From the NCBI RefSeq assembly GCF_003234265.2, contig NZ_CP126256.1, forward strand, positions 2,294,001-2,358,000: a stretch of DNA of 64,000 nt. Reading direction: 5' to 3'. How positions within the stretch are numbered: position 1 is the first letter of the stretch; every line of letters starts with the position of its first letter. Shown in pieces: positions 4,309 to 20,699 of the stretch. Source of the DNA: Curtobacterium sp. MCSS17_015 (GTDB lineage: Bacteria; Actinomycetota; Actinomycetes; Actinomycetales; Microbacteriaceae). The position numbers and the translations under genes are program-made. The notes beneath the pieces were generated by a model. It was not told the DNA's origin and ran no database searches. It was given only the letters and a program-made list of their open reading frames with translations.

Positions 4309-5097
4309 ATGTCGCTCACCATCGCCCAGCCCCGCACCACCCCCGCCCGTCTGGCGGCCGCCGCTCCGACCGACCTCGGCAGCGTCACGCCGATCCGCAG
4401 CCGTCGCGCACCGGCGGCACAGCCGGTCCGTCCGGTCCCCGACCGTTCCGCCGTCCCCACCAGCCCGGTCGTCGCCCCGCAGCGGAACCGGGCACTGCCC
4501 GAGGGGACCGAGGCGCGTGGCTTCGCGCTCTACGTCGGGCTCGACGAGGCCGCCGCGGCTGCGGCCGGCACCACCCTGGCCGCCGTCGTCGAGCAGCTGA
4601 AGGCGCTCACGGCACAGCTCGTGCCGTCGGCGGAGACCTACGCGGCCGTCGCCGTCGCGGCCGAGGGGTCCGGCGGGCGGGACGTCGACGTGGTCCGCCT
4701 CGCGCTGCAGGACCGGTCGGCGGTGGCCGCGCGCAAGCAGACGGAGAAGCCCGAGCCGGAGGAGACCGGCGTCGTCATCGACATCTCCCGCAAGCGTGTC
4801 GTCCTCGACGGCGAGACCGCGCCCCTGACGTTCAAGGAGTTCGAGCTCCTGCAGTTCCTCGTCCTCCGCGAGGGTCGCACGGTTGACCGCTCGGCCATCA
4901 TCGAGGGACTGTGGTCCGACGGTGAGGACGAGACCCCGAACGAGCGCACCATCGACGTGCACGTCCGTCGCCTCCGGGCGAAGCTCGGCGCCTTCGAGGA
5001 GATCGTCCGGACGGTGCGGGGTGTCGGGTACCGGTTCGACCGGCACGCCGACGTGTCGGTGCGCTACGCCTCCACGCCGTCGCCCGACCTCTTCTGA
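4309..5097 (+). CDS. orphan winged-helix (OmpR/PhoB-type) DNA-binding protein without receiver domain
   Basis: 262 residues. The N-terminal ~65 residues are low-complexity Ala/Pro/Arg. A middle region (about 70-135) carries YVGLDEAAAAAAGTTLAAVVEQL and matches no receiver domain I know. The C-terminal wHTH (about 155-250) is typical of OmpR/PhoB: LTFKEFELLQFLVLREGRTV, then IDVHVRRLRAKLG, then TVRGVGYRF. There is no phospho-acceptor domain and no adjacent kinase, so it is not an ordinary response regulator. Targets are unknown. Expressed from the 3930 promoter or a weaker internal one. Confidence 0.8.
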   Translation: MSLTIAQPRTTPARLAAAAPTDLGSVTPIRSRRAPAAQPVRPVPDRSAVPTSPVVAPQRNRALPEGTEARGFALYVGLDEAAAAAAGTTLAAVVEQLKALTAQLVPSAETYAAVAVAAEGSGGRDVDVVRLALQDRSAVAARKQTEKPEPEETGVVIDISRKRVVLDGETAPLTFKEFELLQFLVLREGRTVDRSAIIEGLWSDGEDETPNERTIDVHVRRLRAKLGAFEEIVRTVRGVGYRFDRHADVSVRYASTPSPDLF

Positions 5098-5172
5098 ACC
5101 GGCTCTCGTCCGGCGATCGGACAACTCGCAGGAACCGACGGCGTGGCCGCCTTCCCTGGCGTTACCGCTTCG

Positions 5173-5287
5173 TTATACAGTCGGTCGTGCAGTCGGTGTT
5201 TGCTGTGGCACCGGCTGTGGAATGTGATTGCAGGAATCTCCCGGTGCAAGGGAGCGGGCCGGTCGTCCACTCGGGCGGCCGGCCCGC
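5173..5287 (+). promoter_or_regulatory. candidate promoter and leader hairpin for the MarR-phr operon
   Basis: TTATACAGT at 5173-5181 resembles a -10 element, with a start expected near 5186 and a leader of about 160 nt before GTG 5345. The leader is locally poorer in GC (about 5195-5240). It holds a 9-bp stem, GCGGGCCGG (5254-5262) with CCGGCCCGC (5279-5287), 57 nt before the start codon. Upstream, GTTAC at 5161-5165 and GTTAT at 5172-5176 form a degenerate direct repeat. The gap 5098-5344 contains no gene. Confidence 0.35.
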
Positions 5288-5344
5288 GTTCTGCGTCGGT
5301 ACCCCTCGGTAGGGTGGGGGTCCACCAGACGGAGGGACGTACCC

Positions 5345-16788: not shown

Positions 16789-16798
16789 ACCTTCCGTC

Positions 16799-16930
16799 AG
16801 CGCTTCCTCCCGTCCGGACTTTCACCGTCGGTCCCGGAATCCCACCGGGTCAACCCCGCACCGGGCGGACCCGGCGCGGCGCTCGTGGACTGTCACCACC
16901 GGTTCGGACTTGCACCGACCCCGGAGCGCT
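16799..16930 (-). promoter_or_regulatory. FMN riboswitch (RFN element) controlling ribEBH
   Basis: The transcript matches the RFN consensus in order: GGGGTCGGTGCAAGTCC, ACCGGTGGTGACAGTCC, a variable stem, GGTGGGATTCCGGGACCGAC, then GGTGAAAGTCCGGACGGGAG. The basal stem is AGCGCT (16925-16930) with AGCGCT (16799-16804). A -10 TATCGT at 16948-16943 places the RNA start just before the aptamer. FMN binding should turn riboflavin synthesis off. Confidence 0.93.
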
Positions 16931-16948
16931 TGCGTACCCGAGACGATA

Positions 16949-17152: not shown

Positions 17153-17190
17153 CGGATGCGGAGCACCGGGCGTCCGGTGCTCCGCATCCG
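17153..17190. terminator. intrinsic terminator of the chaplin-like gene
   Basis: 17-bp perfect stem CGGATGCGGAGCACCGG with its complement, GCGT loop (17170-17173), starting 15 nt after the stop of the minus-strand gene at 17206. Confidence 0.85.
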
Positions 17191-17205: not shown

Positions 17206-18984
17206 TCAGTGGCGACGCCGCAGGACCAGCGTCCCGAGTCCGGCGAGCAGGAGGAGGAGCGCTGCCGTCGCCGGCAGGGCGGGGTCAGCGCCCGTGTACG
17301 CGAGACCGGTCGTGCCGATCGTGCCGGTCGTGCCGTTGGTTCCCGACGAGGCGTCGGTCGCCGTGACCGTGCTGGCTCCGACGGTCGCTGCCGTGGTGAC
17401 CGTGCTGCCGGTCGTCACCGTGGCCGCTCGGACCGTCGGGGTGGTGCCGGACACGGCCGGGGTGGTTCCCACCGCCGGGGCCGTGCCCGGGTCGATCGGG
17501 GTGGTCCCCACCGCCGGGGTCGTCCCGGTGCCCGGAGTCGTGCCGGTACCCGGAGTCGCACCGGTACCCGGAGTCGCACCGGTACCCGGAGTCGCACCGG
17601 TACCCGGAGTCGCACCGGTACCCGGAGTCGCACCGGTACCCGGAGTCGCACCGGTACCCGGAGTCGTACCGGTACCCGGCGTCGTGCCGGTACCCGGCGT
17701 CGGCACCGTGCCGGGGTCGGTCCCCGGTCCGGTGCCGGGCTCCGTACCCGTGTCCGTGCCCGGATCCGTGGCGACCGGGGTCGTGCTGGTCCCGTCACCG
17801 ACGATGCCGATGCCGTTGCCACCGATGGTGATCGGGACGTCGATGACCGGGATGATCTGCGTCCCGGAACCGATGCCGTCCTCACCCGAGGTCGAACCAC
17901 CAGCAACCGGAGCCGGACCAGCACCCGTGCCGGAACCGGCCGTCGCACCACCGGTGCTCGTCCCGTCACCGACCACACCGACGCCGTTCCCACCGACCGT
18001 CACCGGGACCGACACCACCGGCGAGACCTGCGTCCCGGAACCGATGCCGTCCTCACCCGAGGTCGAACCACCAGCAACCGGAGCCGGACCAGCACCCGTG
18101 CCGGAACCGGCCGTCGCACCACCGGTGCTCGTCCCGTCACCGACCACACCGACGCCGTTCCCACCGACCGTCACCGGGACCGACACCACCGGCGAGACCT
18201 GCGTCCCGGAACCGATGCCGTCCTCACCCGAGGTCGAACCACCAGCAGCCGGAGCCGGACCAGCACCCGTGCCGGAACCGGCCGTCGCACCACCGGTGCT
18301 CGTCCCGTCACCGACCACACCGACGCCGTTCCCACCGACCGTCACCGGGACCGAGATGGTCCCGAGCAGCTGTGTCCCCGAGATGAGTCCGTCCGACCCC
18401 GAGGTGGTACCGCCGGCCTCCGGGGCGGTCCCGGTCGGCTGCGCCGGCGCCGGGGAACCAGTGGTCGACGTACCGTCACCCAGGACGCCGACACCGTTGC
18501 CGGAGACGGTCACCGGGACCGACACGTCGGGCAGCACCTGCGTCCCGGACAGGACACCGTCCTCACCCGACGTCGACGCCGGCTCAGGAGCCGGAGCCGG
18601 AGCTGAGGCGGGAGCGGCTGCCGCGTCGCTGAGCACGCCGAGCGCGTTGCCGGCGACCTGCACGGGCGCCGTGACCTCGGGGGCGACCTGGGTGCCCGAC
18701 ACGACGCCGTCGTCACCACTGGTGGTCGGTGCTGCGGCGGGGGCGGGAGCAGGGGCAGCAGCAGGCGCCGGAGCGGGTGCTGCCGTGGTCACCGCGTCAC
18801 CGACGATGCCGAAGGCGTTGCGGGTGACGGAGACGGGCGCGTCGACGGTCGGCGCGACCTGGGTTCCGGAGACGGTGCCGTCCTCGCCGGTGGTCGTCGC
18901 CGCGTTCGCCGCGACGGCTCCACCGAAGGTCAGCCCGCCCACGCAGAGGGCGAACCACAGCCCTCGGGAGACGTTCTTGTTCAT
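17206..18984 (-). CDS. chaplin-like repeat protein with LAYTG sortase signal
   Basis: 592 residues. A Sec signal peptide (1-29, cleavage near AANA) is followed by seven repeats of about 35 residues near 32, 88, 138, 194, 251, 308 and 365. The consensus is GEDGxxSGTQVxPxVxVPVTV, then GGNGVGVVGDGTST. It resembles the chaplin core of Streptomyces (SGNxxQVPVxVPVxVxGNxVxVxG) without cysteines. Ala/Pro linkers separate the first repeats. A stalk of ten PGTG(T/A)T units (430-489) and a Thr-rich spacer precede LAYTG (561-565), a hydrophobic helix and RRRH. LAxTG is the class E sortase motif, so the protein should be cell-wall anchored. No sortase is in the window. By analogy with long chaplins it may form a hydrophobic or amyloid-like coat; that is inference. 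Confidence 0.75.
   Translation of the reverse strand: MNKNVSRGLWFALCVGGLTFGGAVAANAATTTGEDGTVSGTQVAPTVDAPVSVTRNAFGIVGDAVTTAAPAPAPAAAPAPAPAAAPTTSGDDGVVSGTQVAPEVTAPVQVAGNALGVLSDAAAAPASAPAPAPEPASTSGEDGVLSGTQVLPDVSVPVTVSGNGVGVLGDGTSTTGSPAPAQPTGTAPEAGGTTSGSDGLISGTQLLGTISVPVTVGGNGVGVVGDGTSTGGATAGSGTGAGPAPAAGGSTSGEDGIGSGTQVSPVVSVPVTVGGNGVGVVGDGTSTGGATAGSGTGAGPAPVAGGSTSGEDGIGSGTQVSPVVSVPVTVGGNGVGVVGDGTSTGGATAGSGTGAGPAPVAGGSTSGEDGIGSGTQIIPVIDVPITIGGNGIGIVGDGTSTTPVATDPGTDTGTEPGTGPGTDPGTVPTPGTGTTPGTGTTPGTGATPGTGATPGTGATPGTGATPGTGATPGTGATPGTGTTPGTGTTPAVGTTPIDPGTAPAVGTTPAVSGTTPTVRAATVTTGSTVTTAATVGASTVTATDASSGTNGTTGTIGTTGLAYTGADPALPATAALLLLLAGLGTLVLRRRH
17518..17697. repeat. 18-bp tandem repeats encoding PGTG(A/T)T stalk
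   Basis: Ten consecutive units of GGAGTCGCACCGGTACCC or near variants, each encoding Pro-Gly-Thr-Gly-(Ala/Thr)-Thr on the minus strand. The six central copies are nearly identical. Copy number is likely variable between strains and would set the length of the wall-spanning stalk. Confidence 0.9.
17868..18351. repeat. 171-bp near-identical tandem repeats (chaplin-like modules 5-7)
   Basis: The phrase CTCACCCGAGGTCGAACCAC recurs at 17881, 18052 and 18223, an exact 171-bp (57-residue) period. About 2.8 copies span the region with very few differences (for example Ala versus Val in the linker). The first four modules are more diverged, so the last three arose by recent duplication. Confidence 0.9.
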
Positions 18985-19070
18985 GGTCGTTCACTCCTGA
19001 TCGAGATGGGTGGTCGACCGCGTGCTGCGGTCGATGGCGCGTCCTGCCGTGACGGGCAGGTGCGCCGATC

Positions 19071-20594
19071 TCAATCGGGAGCGACGTCGTGGTCGCCGAC
19101 GAGCGAGGCCGGGACGGCGTCGTCGGAGACCGGACCGCGGAGACCCGCGGTGAGGGGGGAGGTCGACACCTCGGCACCGACGGTGCCGAGGACGTTCGCG
19201 CCGGCCGACCCACCGGCGGCGGACCCGCCTGCGGTGCCTCCGGCGGTGCCCTCGAACGGTGCGCGTGTCGGCGCGCCGCCGTCCGGGAGGATGTGTGCCT
19301 CGCCACCGAGCGTCGCCGCTGCGGAGGCCGAGGTGACGACCTCGGCTCCGACCAGACCGACGGTCGGACGAGCGGCGAGGTCCGTCGCGGTGGTGGTCGC
19401 CGGCCGCTGTTCGTCCAGGGCGACGACGGCTGCGGCGTCCGTGGTCGCTGCCGGGGTGACGTCCGCTCCGACGTCGCGGCCGTCGCCGGGTCGGGCGGGC
19501 ACCGCGGGGTCCACCGGCAGGGCGGGGACCACGGGCGACTGCGGACCGACGCCCGGGACCTCGGGCAGCGCACCGCCGGAGCCCGGGAGCACCGGGCGCA
19601 CGGGGAGGTCGACGACGGGCAGCGGGCCTCCCGGCAGGACGCCGCCTCCGGTGGTCGGCAGACCATCGACGAGCTCGGGCACGTCGGCGACCACGTCCGG
19701 CACGACGGCGACGACGTCACCGACCGTGCCGAGGGTCCCGTCGACGATGCCGGTGACGGGTGCGGCGACCTCGCCGAGCGTGCCGTCGCCGAGCAGTGTG
19801 CCGACGACCGGGAGGCTCCCGACCACCCGGTCGACGGTCGCCACGATGCTGCTCACCGGGCCCGCGGCCGTGACGGCCTGCACCGACTCTGTGACGGGTG
19901 CGAGGGCCTCGGACGCGGTGTCGGTGACGGGTGCGAGGGCCTCGGACGCGGTGTCGGTGACGGGCCGCGAGGCGCTGCTCACGGCCGTCACGACGTCGCC
20001 GACGAGCGGCGTGCCCGGTCGGGCCGCGGGGTCTTCGTCGACGCCGGTCGACGGGGCCGCCGGCGTCGCCGACGCGGATCCGGTGGCCCCGGCCGCGGCC
20101 TCGGTCGACGCCGGAGTCGTCGGCGCCCCGTCCGCCGGTGGCGCGGCGACCGGTGCGGCGGGGGCAGCGGGAGCGAGAGCCGCAGGGGCGGGTGCGACGG
20201 GAGCAGCCGGTGGCGCAGCCGGAGTCGCGACGACCGGCGCGGGAGCCGGCGTGCGGACCGGAGCAGGCGCTGCCGGGACCGGGGCAGCAACGACCGGTGC
20301 GACGCCGCGGACGGGTGCGACGGCCCGGTCGACGACCCGACCCGCCCCGCTCGTGACGCGCTCCGCAGCTCCCCCGACGCCGGAGACGACGCCCCCGAGC
20401 GGGCCGTCGGCCCGCGGTGCTGCGGATGTCTGGGAACCACCGGACGACGCCCCGCCGAGGAGTGGTCCTCCCGCTGCCGCTGCGGGCCGGGCACCGAGGA
20501 CGAGCGAGAGCAGCACGACCGCCGTCGCGATCCCGGAGGCCATGAGAGCCCATCGCAGGACCGCGCGCCAGGGTGCGCGCATCGTCGCGTCCAT
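19071..20594 (-). CDS. large secreted Ala/Pro/Val-rich protein, unknown function
   Basis: 507 residues. A hydrophobic segment (about 14-36) then ARPAAAAGG looks like a Sec signal peptide. The rest is low-complexity: an Ala/Pro region (about 75-160), then hydrophobic LVGDVV/PVVGTLLGDGTLG/PVTGIVDGTLG segments with regularly spaced Val and Gly, and Gly/Ala-rich stretches near the end. There is no sorting signal, enzyme motif or C-terminal anchor. ATG 20594 follows AGGAGGT at a good distance. It lies 86 nt upstream of the chaplin-like gene on the same strand, so the two are probably co-expressed surface proteins. Not recognised. Confidence 0.7.
   Translation of the reverse strand: MDATMRAPWRAVLRWALMASGIATAVVLLSLVLGARPAAAAGGPLLGGASSGGSQTSAAPRADGPLGGVVSGVGGAAERVTSGAGRVVDRAVAPVRGVAPVVAAPVPAAPAPVRTPAPAPVVATPAAPPAAPVAPAPAALAPAAPAAPVAAPPADGAPTTPASTEAAAGATGSASATPAAPSTGVDEDPAARPGTPLVGDVVTAVSSASRPVTDTASEALAPVTDTASEALAPVTESVQAVTAAGPVSSIVATVDRVVGSLPVVGTLLGDGTLGEVAAPVTGIVDGTLGTVGDVVAVVPDVVADVPELVDGLPTTGGGVLPGGPLPVVDLPVRPVLPGSGGALPEVPGVGPQSPVVPALPVDPAVPARPGDGRDVGADVTPAATTDAAAVVALDEQRPATTTATDLAARPTVGLVGAEVVTSASAAATLGGEAHILPDGGAPTRAPFEGTAGGTAGGSAAGGSAGANVLGTVGAEVSTSPLTAGLRGPVSDDAVPASLVGDHDVAPD
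19891..19956. repeat. 33-bp exact tandem duplication in the secreted protein gene
   Basis: Two identical 33-bp units (19891-19923 and 19924-19956) encode PVTDTASEALA twice; a diverged third copy (PVTESVQAVTA) adjoins. It is an in-frame duplication within the hydrophobic/polar repeat section. Confidence 0.9.
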
Positions 20595-20699
20595 GCGCTC
20601 ACCTCCTGATCTCGGCTGCGCACGTAGAGTGGTTGACCGGCACGGTACGCCAGGACCGCTGCCACGCTCCTCATTCACAAGGAAAAGTCAGGAAACGGC

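Follow-up and report, generated by a model that had tools for sequence, protein, structure and literature searches.

The 64,000-nt stretch of DNA analysed here (the window) comes from Curtobacterium sp. MCSS17_015 (NZ_CP126256.1:2,294,001-2,358,000), and coordinates below are positions within it unless otherwise stated. On its minus strand lie two adjacent genes: a partner gene (19071..20594) encoding a 507-aa protein with a signal peptide, and, 86 nt after the partner stop codon, a poly-chaplin-like gene (17206..18984) encoding a protein of 592 aa. The region from the partner stop codon to the chaplin start codon (18982..19073) was predicted from folding and covariation to form a three-way junction RNA in which the stop codon itself is base paired. 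The reading favoured here, with a probability of roughly 45%, is that the two genes specify a wall-anchored coat or adhesin whose synthesis would be tied, via the intergenic RNA, to the termination of partner translation. Loci and genomes used for comparison are given L and G numbers. Curtobacterium is a unicellular, non-filamentous genus associated with plants and soil, and the proposal of the first-pass annotation, made from the sequence alone, that the DNA belonged to a Microbacteriaceae cell was borne out. The conserved intergenic RNA, the conserved tail of the partner and a second copy of the operon described below go beyond that annotation.

The chaplin-like gene starts with ATG, 5′ of which stands a Shine-Dalgarno-like AGGAG (18994..18998). 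The translated product comprises a signal peptide, seven modules, a low-complexity Pro-Gly-Thr stalk (approximately residues 405-556; 17317..17772; limits set by eye) and a C-terminal anchor region (17209..17304), the last consisting of an LAYTG sorting signal (residues 561-565; 17290-17304), a membrane helix predicted at residues 569-591 of the 592, and then RRRH. The anchor region scored 24.4 bits with the NCBIfam model Microco_LAVTG, under its cut-off of 27. The sole cysteine is residue 14, inside the signal peptide, leaving the modules cysteine-free. The annotated layout of seven cysteine-free modules, stalk and LAYTG anchor was thus confirmed from the open reading frame. The stalk DNA is built of an 18-bp repeat, and 3′ of the gene a terminator-like hairpin (17154..17189, minus strand) was read by eye.

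All seven modules were 35 residues long and, when cut out singly, each had the chaplin family PF03777 as its top match. Module 1 (residues 33-67; 18784..18888) scored 14.8 bits, module 2 (residues 90-124; 18613..18717) 18.8 bits, module 3 (residues 140-174; 18463..18567) 24.4 bits and module 4 (residues 196-230; 18295..18399) 20.8 bits. Modules 5 (residues 253-287; 18124..18228) and 6 (residues 310-344; 17953..18057) are identical and scored 15.3 bits each, and module 7 (residues 367-401; 17782..17886) scored 16.0 bits. The corresponding E-values ranged from 0.027 to 2.6e-5. One module alone reached 21 bits, the next being 20.8, and this cut-off was set for whole proteins. The whole 592-aa protein matched PF03777 at 57.3 bits (E 1.4e-15) over six stretches. 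Since modules 5 and 6 are identical and the DNA covering them consists of 171-bp tandem repeats (17783-18354), the number of modules is probably altered by recombination.

The classical chaplin domain is described as about 40 residues long, with two domains in each of ChpA-C (PMC3079736), and as containing three GN motifs spaced 12-13 residues apart and two cysteines (PMC13251363). Inspection of the modules by eye revealed SGT at the first GN site, GN at the middle site in six of the seven and GD or SD at the third, so that one of the three GN motifs is kept, and neither of the two conserved cysteines was found in any of the seven modules. ChpE also has no cysteines yet forms fibrils, the cysteines being dispensable for fibrils in vitro (PMC3079736). 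The long chaplins ChpA-C of Streptomyces (PF03777, DUF320) are exported and carry an LAXTG signal for a class E sortase (PMC5148588, PMC3079736). The window protein resembles them in its export signal, its chaplin-family domains and its LAXTG-type signal with membrane helix and basic tail. It differs in having seven shorter modules rather than two domains, no cysteines in these, one kept GN motif, a Pro-Gly-Thr stalk and an upstream partner gene. Given the family match and the LAXTG-type anchor on the one hand, and the GN motifs, cysteines and domain number on the other, the protein is named here a PF03777-family poly-chaplin-like protein and not a classical chaplin. The earlier view of the modules as chaplin-like was supported by the family match (57.3 bits against a cut-off of 21), but measured against the strict domain description, with its three GN motifs and two cysteines, the modules fall short. 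In an AlphaFold model (60.7 for the whole chain), most modules formed approximately four short strands, and no usable match was found among solved structures.

Poly-chaplins of the same family and architecture are already known by name from Micrococcales and relatives, and the window protein is one more member. A protein search returned 122 relatives among 8000 scored candidates, found in Microbacterium, Agromyces, Mycetocola, Cellulomonas, Pseudarthrobacter and other genera. Of the 120 that were listed, 17 bore a chaplin name. Chaplin-like proteins outside filamentous genera were described in Arthrobacter chlorophenolicus in 2013, with attachment proposed as a possible earlier role (PMC4255298). 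Modules were counted with a profile made from those of the window gene and its paralogue. In 59 genes read as complete, which take in the window gene, the paralogue, complete near-duplicates and L041 with its masked bases, the count ranged from 4 to 13 with a median of 7. The earlier suggestion that such a protein is exceptional in having seven modules on a single anchor was not supported. In L041 (genome G030), a masked stretch was observed in the chaplin-like gene and the anchor appeared to be lost, probably through masking or assembly.

At E 1e-3, PF03777 matches were found in 21 of 59 relatives of the host genome, in 30 of 150 genomes of the family (spanning 20 of 85 genera) and in 23 of 297 genomes of the order, where some matches were not chaplin frames. 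The matches at L154, L156 and L157 were rejected as chaplins because their reading frames were unlike those of chaplins. In each genome scanned, 10 to 150 candidates were scored out of thousands found at first look, so absences carry little weight. The PF03777 counts are too low, the scan of 59 relatives having missed 16 Curtobacterium genomes that have the gene.

The host genome is a single contig of 3.32 Mb. It was searched for a class E sortase, as the first-pass annotation had suggested, and one was found (NF033747, 229.2 bits, cut-off 160). A further sortase-like gene (G000 C1:2535601-2535852; L035 approximately 4330-5300, minus strand), without catalytic Cys and His as judged by eye, adjoins PstB-like and PstS-like genes (also named by eye) and is a possible pseudo-sortase. 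The same genome contains a paralogous operon (G000 C1:250857-254944; L033 3858-7945) that includes the same RNA, its two genes encoding a partner of 528 aa and a protein of 803 aa with 11 modules; the partner and the chaplin-like protein are each about 53% identical to their window counterparts. All eight PF03777 matches in the host genome at E 1e-3 fall inside the two operon copies, and no short chaplin was found at that threshold, which weaker matches could escape. This bears on whether the protein could be a developmental chaplin of the Streptomyces type that serves aerial growth by co-assembling with short chaplins and rodlins. The PF03777 match and LAXTG-type anchor would fit such a role, but with no short chaplin detected and a different module architecture it was considered highly improbable.

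The partner gene encodes a signal peptide, recognised by eye, and a low-complexity body of Ala, Val, Pro and Gly with no anchor, in line with the earlier description of a 507-residue low-complexity secreted protein upstream. No Pfam or NCBIfam family matched it at E up to 1. A direct protein search with the partner returned eight relatives, of which the five with an organism name were hypothetical proteins of Curtobacterium. A 33-bp DNA repeat within the gene (19891-19972) gives rise to tandem TDTASEALAPV units. Directly 5′ of the partner start, a stretch of about 60 bp (20595..20655, minus strand) was nearly invariant in an alignment of 21 Curtobacterium loci; it is possibly a promoter or leader element.

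The association of the two genes proposed earlier proved steady across loci, based on tallies made by hand from unfiltered reading-frame listings. In a first listing, all 27 loci (25 distinct) had a partner-type frame that ended a short way 5′ of the chaplin start, and such a frame lay upstream in 27 of 29 loci of a second and 13 of 19 of a third. The exceptions in the second listing were L108, with no upstream frame, and L109, where the wrong frame had been picked and which was positive when refetched as L160, the same place. In the third, they were L108 again (read in both listings), L144 (cut by a contig end), L154, L156 and L157 (not chaplin frames) and L159, the one clear exception, whose upstream frame ends in PA. 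Partner-positive loci span at least three families: Microbacteriaceae, f18 (L050, L155, L158, L161) and f6 (L056, L152, L153). No description of a chaplin partner gene, its tail or the intergenic RNA was found in the titles and beginnings of abstracts that the literature searches listed, most of which showed part of the matching papers and in which subscription papers were mostly not included.

Among the aligned Microbacteriaceae partners, the last 17 residues conform without gaps to the loose pattern DDx(L/V)P(A/S)SPxxxxDxxPD-stop (the alignment covered 27 of 48 partners located, and for 13 the partner start was not found). In the window this tail is DDAVPASLVGDHDVAPD (19074..19124), ending at the stop codon. 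The body aligned poorly, and partners outside Microbacteriaceae share little with the others beyond the tail end. The penultimate residue was Pro in 61 of 61 partner genes, partly by construction since a P(D/N), P(D/G) or similar end was required in picking partners, and the last residue was Asp in 58 and Gly in 3, with varying codons. In a control set, 12 of 346 coding-like frames ended in P(D/G), and some of these are possibly partner genes.

An export signal, a body that varies and a C-terminus conserved in phase with the stop codon are also what would be expected if the partner were a nascent-chain sensor, its tail slowing or stalling the ribosome at or near the stop in an export-dependent manner, so that the parked ribosome keeps the first helix of the RNA open and sets chaplin synthesis. 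The arrest-peptide leaders SecM-secA, VemP-secDF2, ApcA-yidC2 and NSP-stop/NAP-stop likewise have an exported upstream protein with a conserved C-terminus, in some cases a structured intergenic RNA, and a regulated downstream gene. NSP-stop and NAP-stop stall with a stop codon in the A site (PMC10987492), and ApcA, which stalls when Pro occupies the P site, tolerates either Gly or Asp as the A-site residue (PMC7897499); the partner ends in Pro and then Asp or Gly. Stalling of the partner is hypothetical here, and several features differ. At 507 aa the partner greatly exceeds the 80-200 aa set as a criterion in searches for known cases; it ends in VAPD with no RAPP-like motif; the downstream gene encodes a surface protein and is neither sec nor yidC; and the hidden downstream ribosome-binding site of arrest-controlled operons was not seen in the predicted folds. 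The tail might serve as no more than a protein contact, and the sensor was judged improbable.

The predicted junction comprises a closing helix P1 (19002..19073) and two arms, P2 (19036..19066), with an asymmetric internal loop, and P3 (19014..19034), all on the minus strand. In P1, the partner stop codon UGA and the following GAU (19068-19073) are paired with AUCUCG (19002-19007), which lies just 5′ of the chaplin ribosome-binding site, the AGGAG following P1 by a few nucleotides. Where the stop codon differs, the helix differs with it. In L100 the stop is UAA and the opposite strand reads UUA, not UCA, and in L056 and L152, with UAG, P1 begins one base later. From the end of P1, the median distance to the start codon was 18 nt (range 12-74) and that to the first ribosome-binding-like motif 4.5 nt. 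A search of the intergenic region against Rfam 15 gave four matches at E 2.9 to 7.2, none over the gathering threshold and none to a plausible family.

Folding statistics supported a stable structure directly after the stop codon. The mean folding z was -2.99, with values below -2 in 48 of 54 intergenic regions, a set in which L036/L043 and L040/L053 are duplicate pairs (identical intergenic sequences) and L097 has a wrong start. For nucleotides 2-5 counted from the stop codon on, the mean probability of pairing at least 40 nt downstream was 0.73 compared to 0.18 after shuffling, and none of 40 shuffled sets exceeded 0.31; the 32 rows of this test represent 31 distinct loci, the window being entered twice and the wrong-start row of L097 included. 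In L092, L102, L104 and L110 the probability was 0.03 or less. A junction including the stop codon could be drawn in 60 of 63 intergenic regions and was within 1 kcal/mol of the optimum in 51, L043, L053, L097 and L149 having been left out of this set and the near-duplicates L111, L117 and L118 kept.

A stable structure immediately after a stop codon is the hallmark of the ribosome termination structure, and the main rival reading is that the junction is such an insulator, keeping ribosomes that leave the partner from drifting on, with the accessible ribosome-binding site of the chaplin gene serving for separate initiation there. Post-stop structures are enriched at gene gaps of at least 25 nt and inhibit re-initiation (PMC7518266), and the chaplin ribosome-binding region was mostly unpaired in the predictions. 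The same source reports that these structures are depleted after operon genes other than the last, and an insulator has no obvious need for one conserved three-way fold in which the stop codon is paired and the following ribosome-binding site lies at an almost constant distance. Moreover, ribosome termination structures are described as a general folding tendency, whereas the RNA here has a single architecture, covarying between families, in which the stop codon itself is paired. The insulator was regarded as unlikely.

Covariation was assessed in alignments of two kinds. An unfitted alignment of 23 sequences from the genus contained 20 cells with two-sided changes compared to 6.6 in shuffles, and 99.1% of its cells pair. 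In an alignment of 14 sequences fitted to the model, two rows of which begin one or two bases 5′ of the stop codon, two-sided changes were seen at 20 of 24 pairs. With 25 sequences fitted, they were seen at 23 of 24 pairs and in 161 cells, with 94.4% of cells paired; none of 500 shuffles was as high on five measures, and a partner strand slid out of register paired in 31 to 40%. When all genera were put into one MAFFT alignment the arms came out misaligned, and that alignment was left out of these counts. Since fitting to a model favours structure, model searches provided the more independent test.

A covariance model trained on Curtobacterium alone (R1) located the exact intergenic region in another family, at L155 (39.1 bits), L158 (37.8 bits) and L050 (32.9 bits), and also that of L146 (29.6 bits) and L105 (25.9 bits), all five of these non-Curtobacterium places having E < 1e-3. 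In the host genome at E up to 1, the two operon copies were the only matches. The R1 match at L146 6162-6256 (E 0.034) was set aside as a chance place, as were several more in the window. A second model (R2) was run on 34 other loci, none of them used in training, and found the right place in 11 at E < 0.002 and in 14 at E up to 1.

The genome scans with R2 made no use of the partner protein sequence. Matches were obtained in 35 of 36 Curtobacterium genomes, 7 of which had given training sequences and 28 had not, and the one genome missed (G009) is in 790 pieces. In the scan of relatives, 16 of the 35 had no PF03777 match; when re-read, all 16 showed a partner frame ending in DVAPD followed by a chaplin start, the downstream frame being broken in L184. 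Across 396 genomes of the order, R2 found 16 places in 15 genomes, 14 of which lay in the operon after a frame ending in P(D/G)-stop, including 9 of the 11 not in training; the other two, L196 and L198, were unrelated places outside the operon. The class-wide scan of 394 genomes gave 7 places, and two of these, L199 and L200, both outside the order, were false and not in the operon.

A shape kept while its sequence changes would also suit a structural roadblock. The junction could thus be an mRNA processing or stability element, at which a nuclease cuts or is blocked so that chaplin and partner messages differ in amount. The two stable arms and the similar length of the intergenic region in most loci are consistent with this. 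It leaves unexplained why P1 starts on the stop codon and why the distance to the chaplin start is similar, and a processing element was considered decidedly unlikely.

From the computed features, namely the gene anatomy, chaplin-family match, sortase, conserved operon, predicted covarying RNA and partner tail, we infer one transcript, export and anchoring, a coat or adhesion role, a physical partnership and a translational link. As postulated, one mRNA would carry the two genes as a conserved surface operon, and both products would be exported. The class E sortase would anchor the chaplin-like protein to the wall through LAYTG, so that a string of beta-rich modules on a stalk could build a hydrophobic or adhesive outer layer, in which the unanchored partner may be its companion. 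Because the RNA begins on the stop codon of the partner and ends at the ribosome-binding site of the chaplin gene, its folding is expected to depend on the ribosome terminating on the partner. A ribosome on the stop codon would prevent P1 from forming, and P1, once formed, would join the partner stop and chaplin start sites across about 86 nt. Termination-dependent folding and the bringing together of stop and start together favour a translational link between the two genes. Coupling through RNA structure is on record for rpmI-rplT, which are 52 nt apart (review PMC12548453).

A number of observations weigh against this reading. In the window itself P1 was only about half populated (0.49 compared to 0.17-0.18), a value equalled by 15-17.5% of shuffles. 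No junction could be drawn in 3 of the 63 intergenic regions, and 12 in all, those three among them, lacked one within 1 kcal/mol of the optimum. Two-sided change in the unfitted alignment of the genus occurred at 5 of 24 pairs, a count reached by 9 of 500 shuffles, and pair types were no higher than in shuffles (12 compared to 11.9). Weak correct matches of R1 (15-20 bits) mixed with chance ones, and at E up to 1 R2 gave no correct place in 20 of the 34 other loci. The ribosome-binding region was open, its unpaired probability being 0.64 in the free RNA and 0.51 once the first 15 nt were covered; as the fold does not hide it, there is no support for coupling by simple unfolding. In published work, a stable structure behind the stop codon of a synthetic operon inhibited re-initiation (PMC7518266), and a distance of about 20 nt all but eliminated coupling in the six gene pairs examined (PMC10666635). 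The hydropathy of the modules was modest (0.28 to 0.89).

The boldest reading, held to be rather unlikely, is that the partner gene and the RNA form a new termination-sensing device. Here the tail would pause the ribosome on the stop codon within P1, and P1 would hand the ribosome across the 86-nt gap, keeping the coat in step with partner export. This would resemble the ribosome shunt of plant pararetroviruses, where a reading frame terminates at the base of a structure past which the following start is found directly; in two viruses compared, 7 and 8 nt separate the end of the frame from the stem (PMC5902531). The shunt differs in using eukaryotic scanning ribosomes, and in the Curtobacterium RNA the stop codon lies inside the stem.

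The surroundings of the operon were also compared. The operon of the window is the copy with shared neighbours: among 26 loci compared, two duplicate pairs included, an acetyltransferase gene resembling that of the window was present in 22 and a riboflavin synthase gene in 20. The second operon copy of the host genome adjoins a GAF-PP2C phosphatase gene, as does the operon in L037. An FMN riboswitch (RF00050, 79.7 bits) was identified at 16798-16931 on the minus strand, before the riboflavin genes that follow the operon. A link between this riboswitch and the operon was dropped, its position being past the hairpin 3′ of the chaplin-like gene.

In filamentous Streptomyces, chaplins are familiar as proteins of the coat, and here they look like a regular surface module of Curtobacterium, in which the chaplin-like protein is consistently accompanied by a secreted protein that belongs to no named family. 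As a candidate for a new family of structured RNAs, the intergenic RNA stands out in that the stop codon of the upstream gene makes its first base pairs. It offers a natural, covariation-supported case in which RNA shape may couple or insulate translation, and the gap spanned by the junction is one that current models regard as too long. If true, the termination-sensing device would be a bacterial counterpart of the ribosome shunt.

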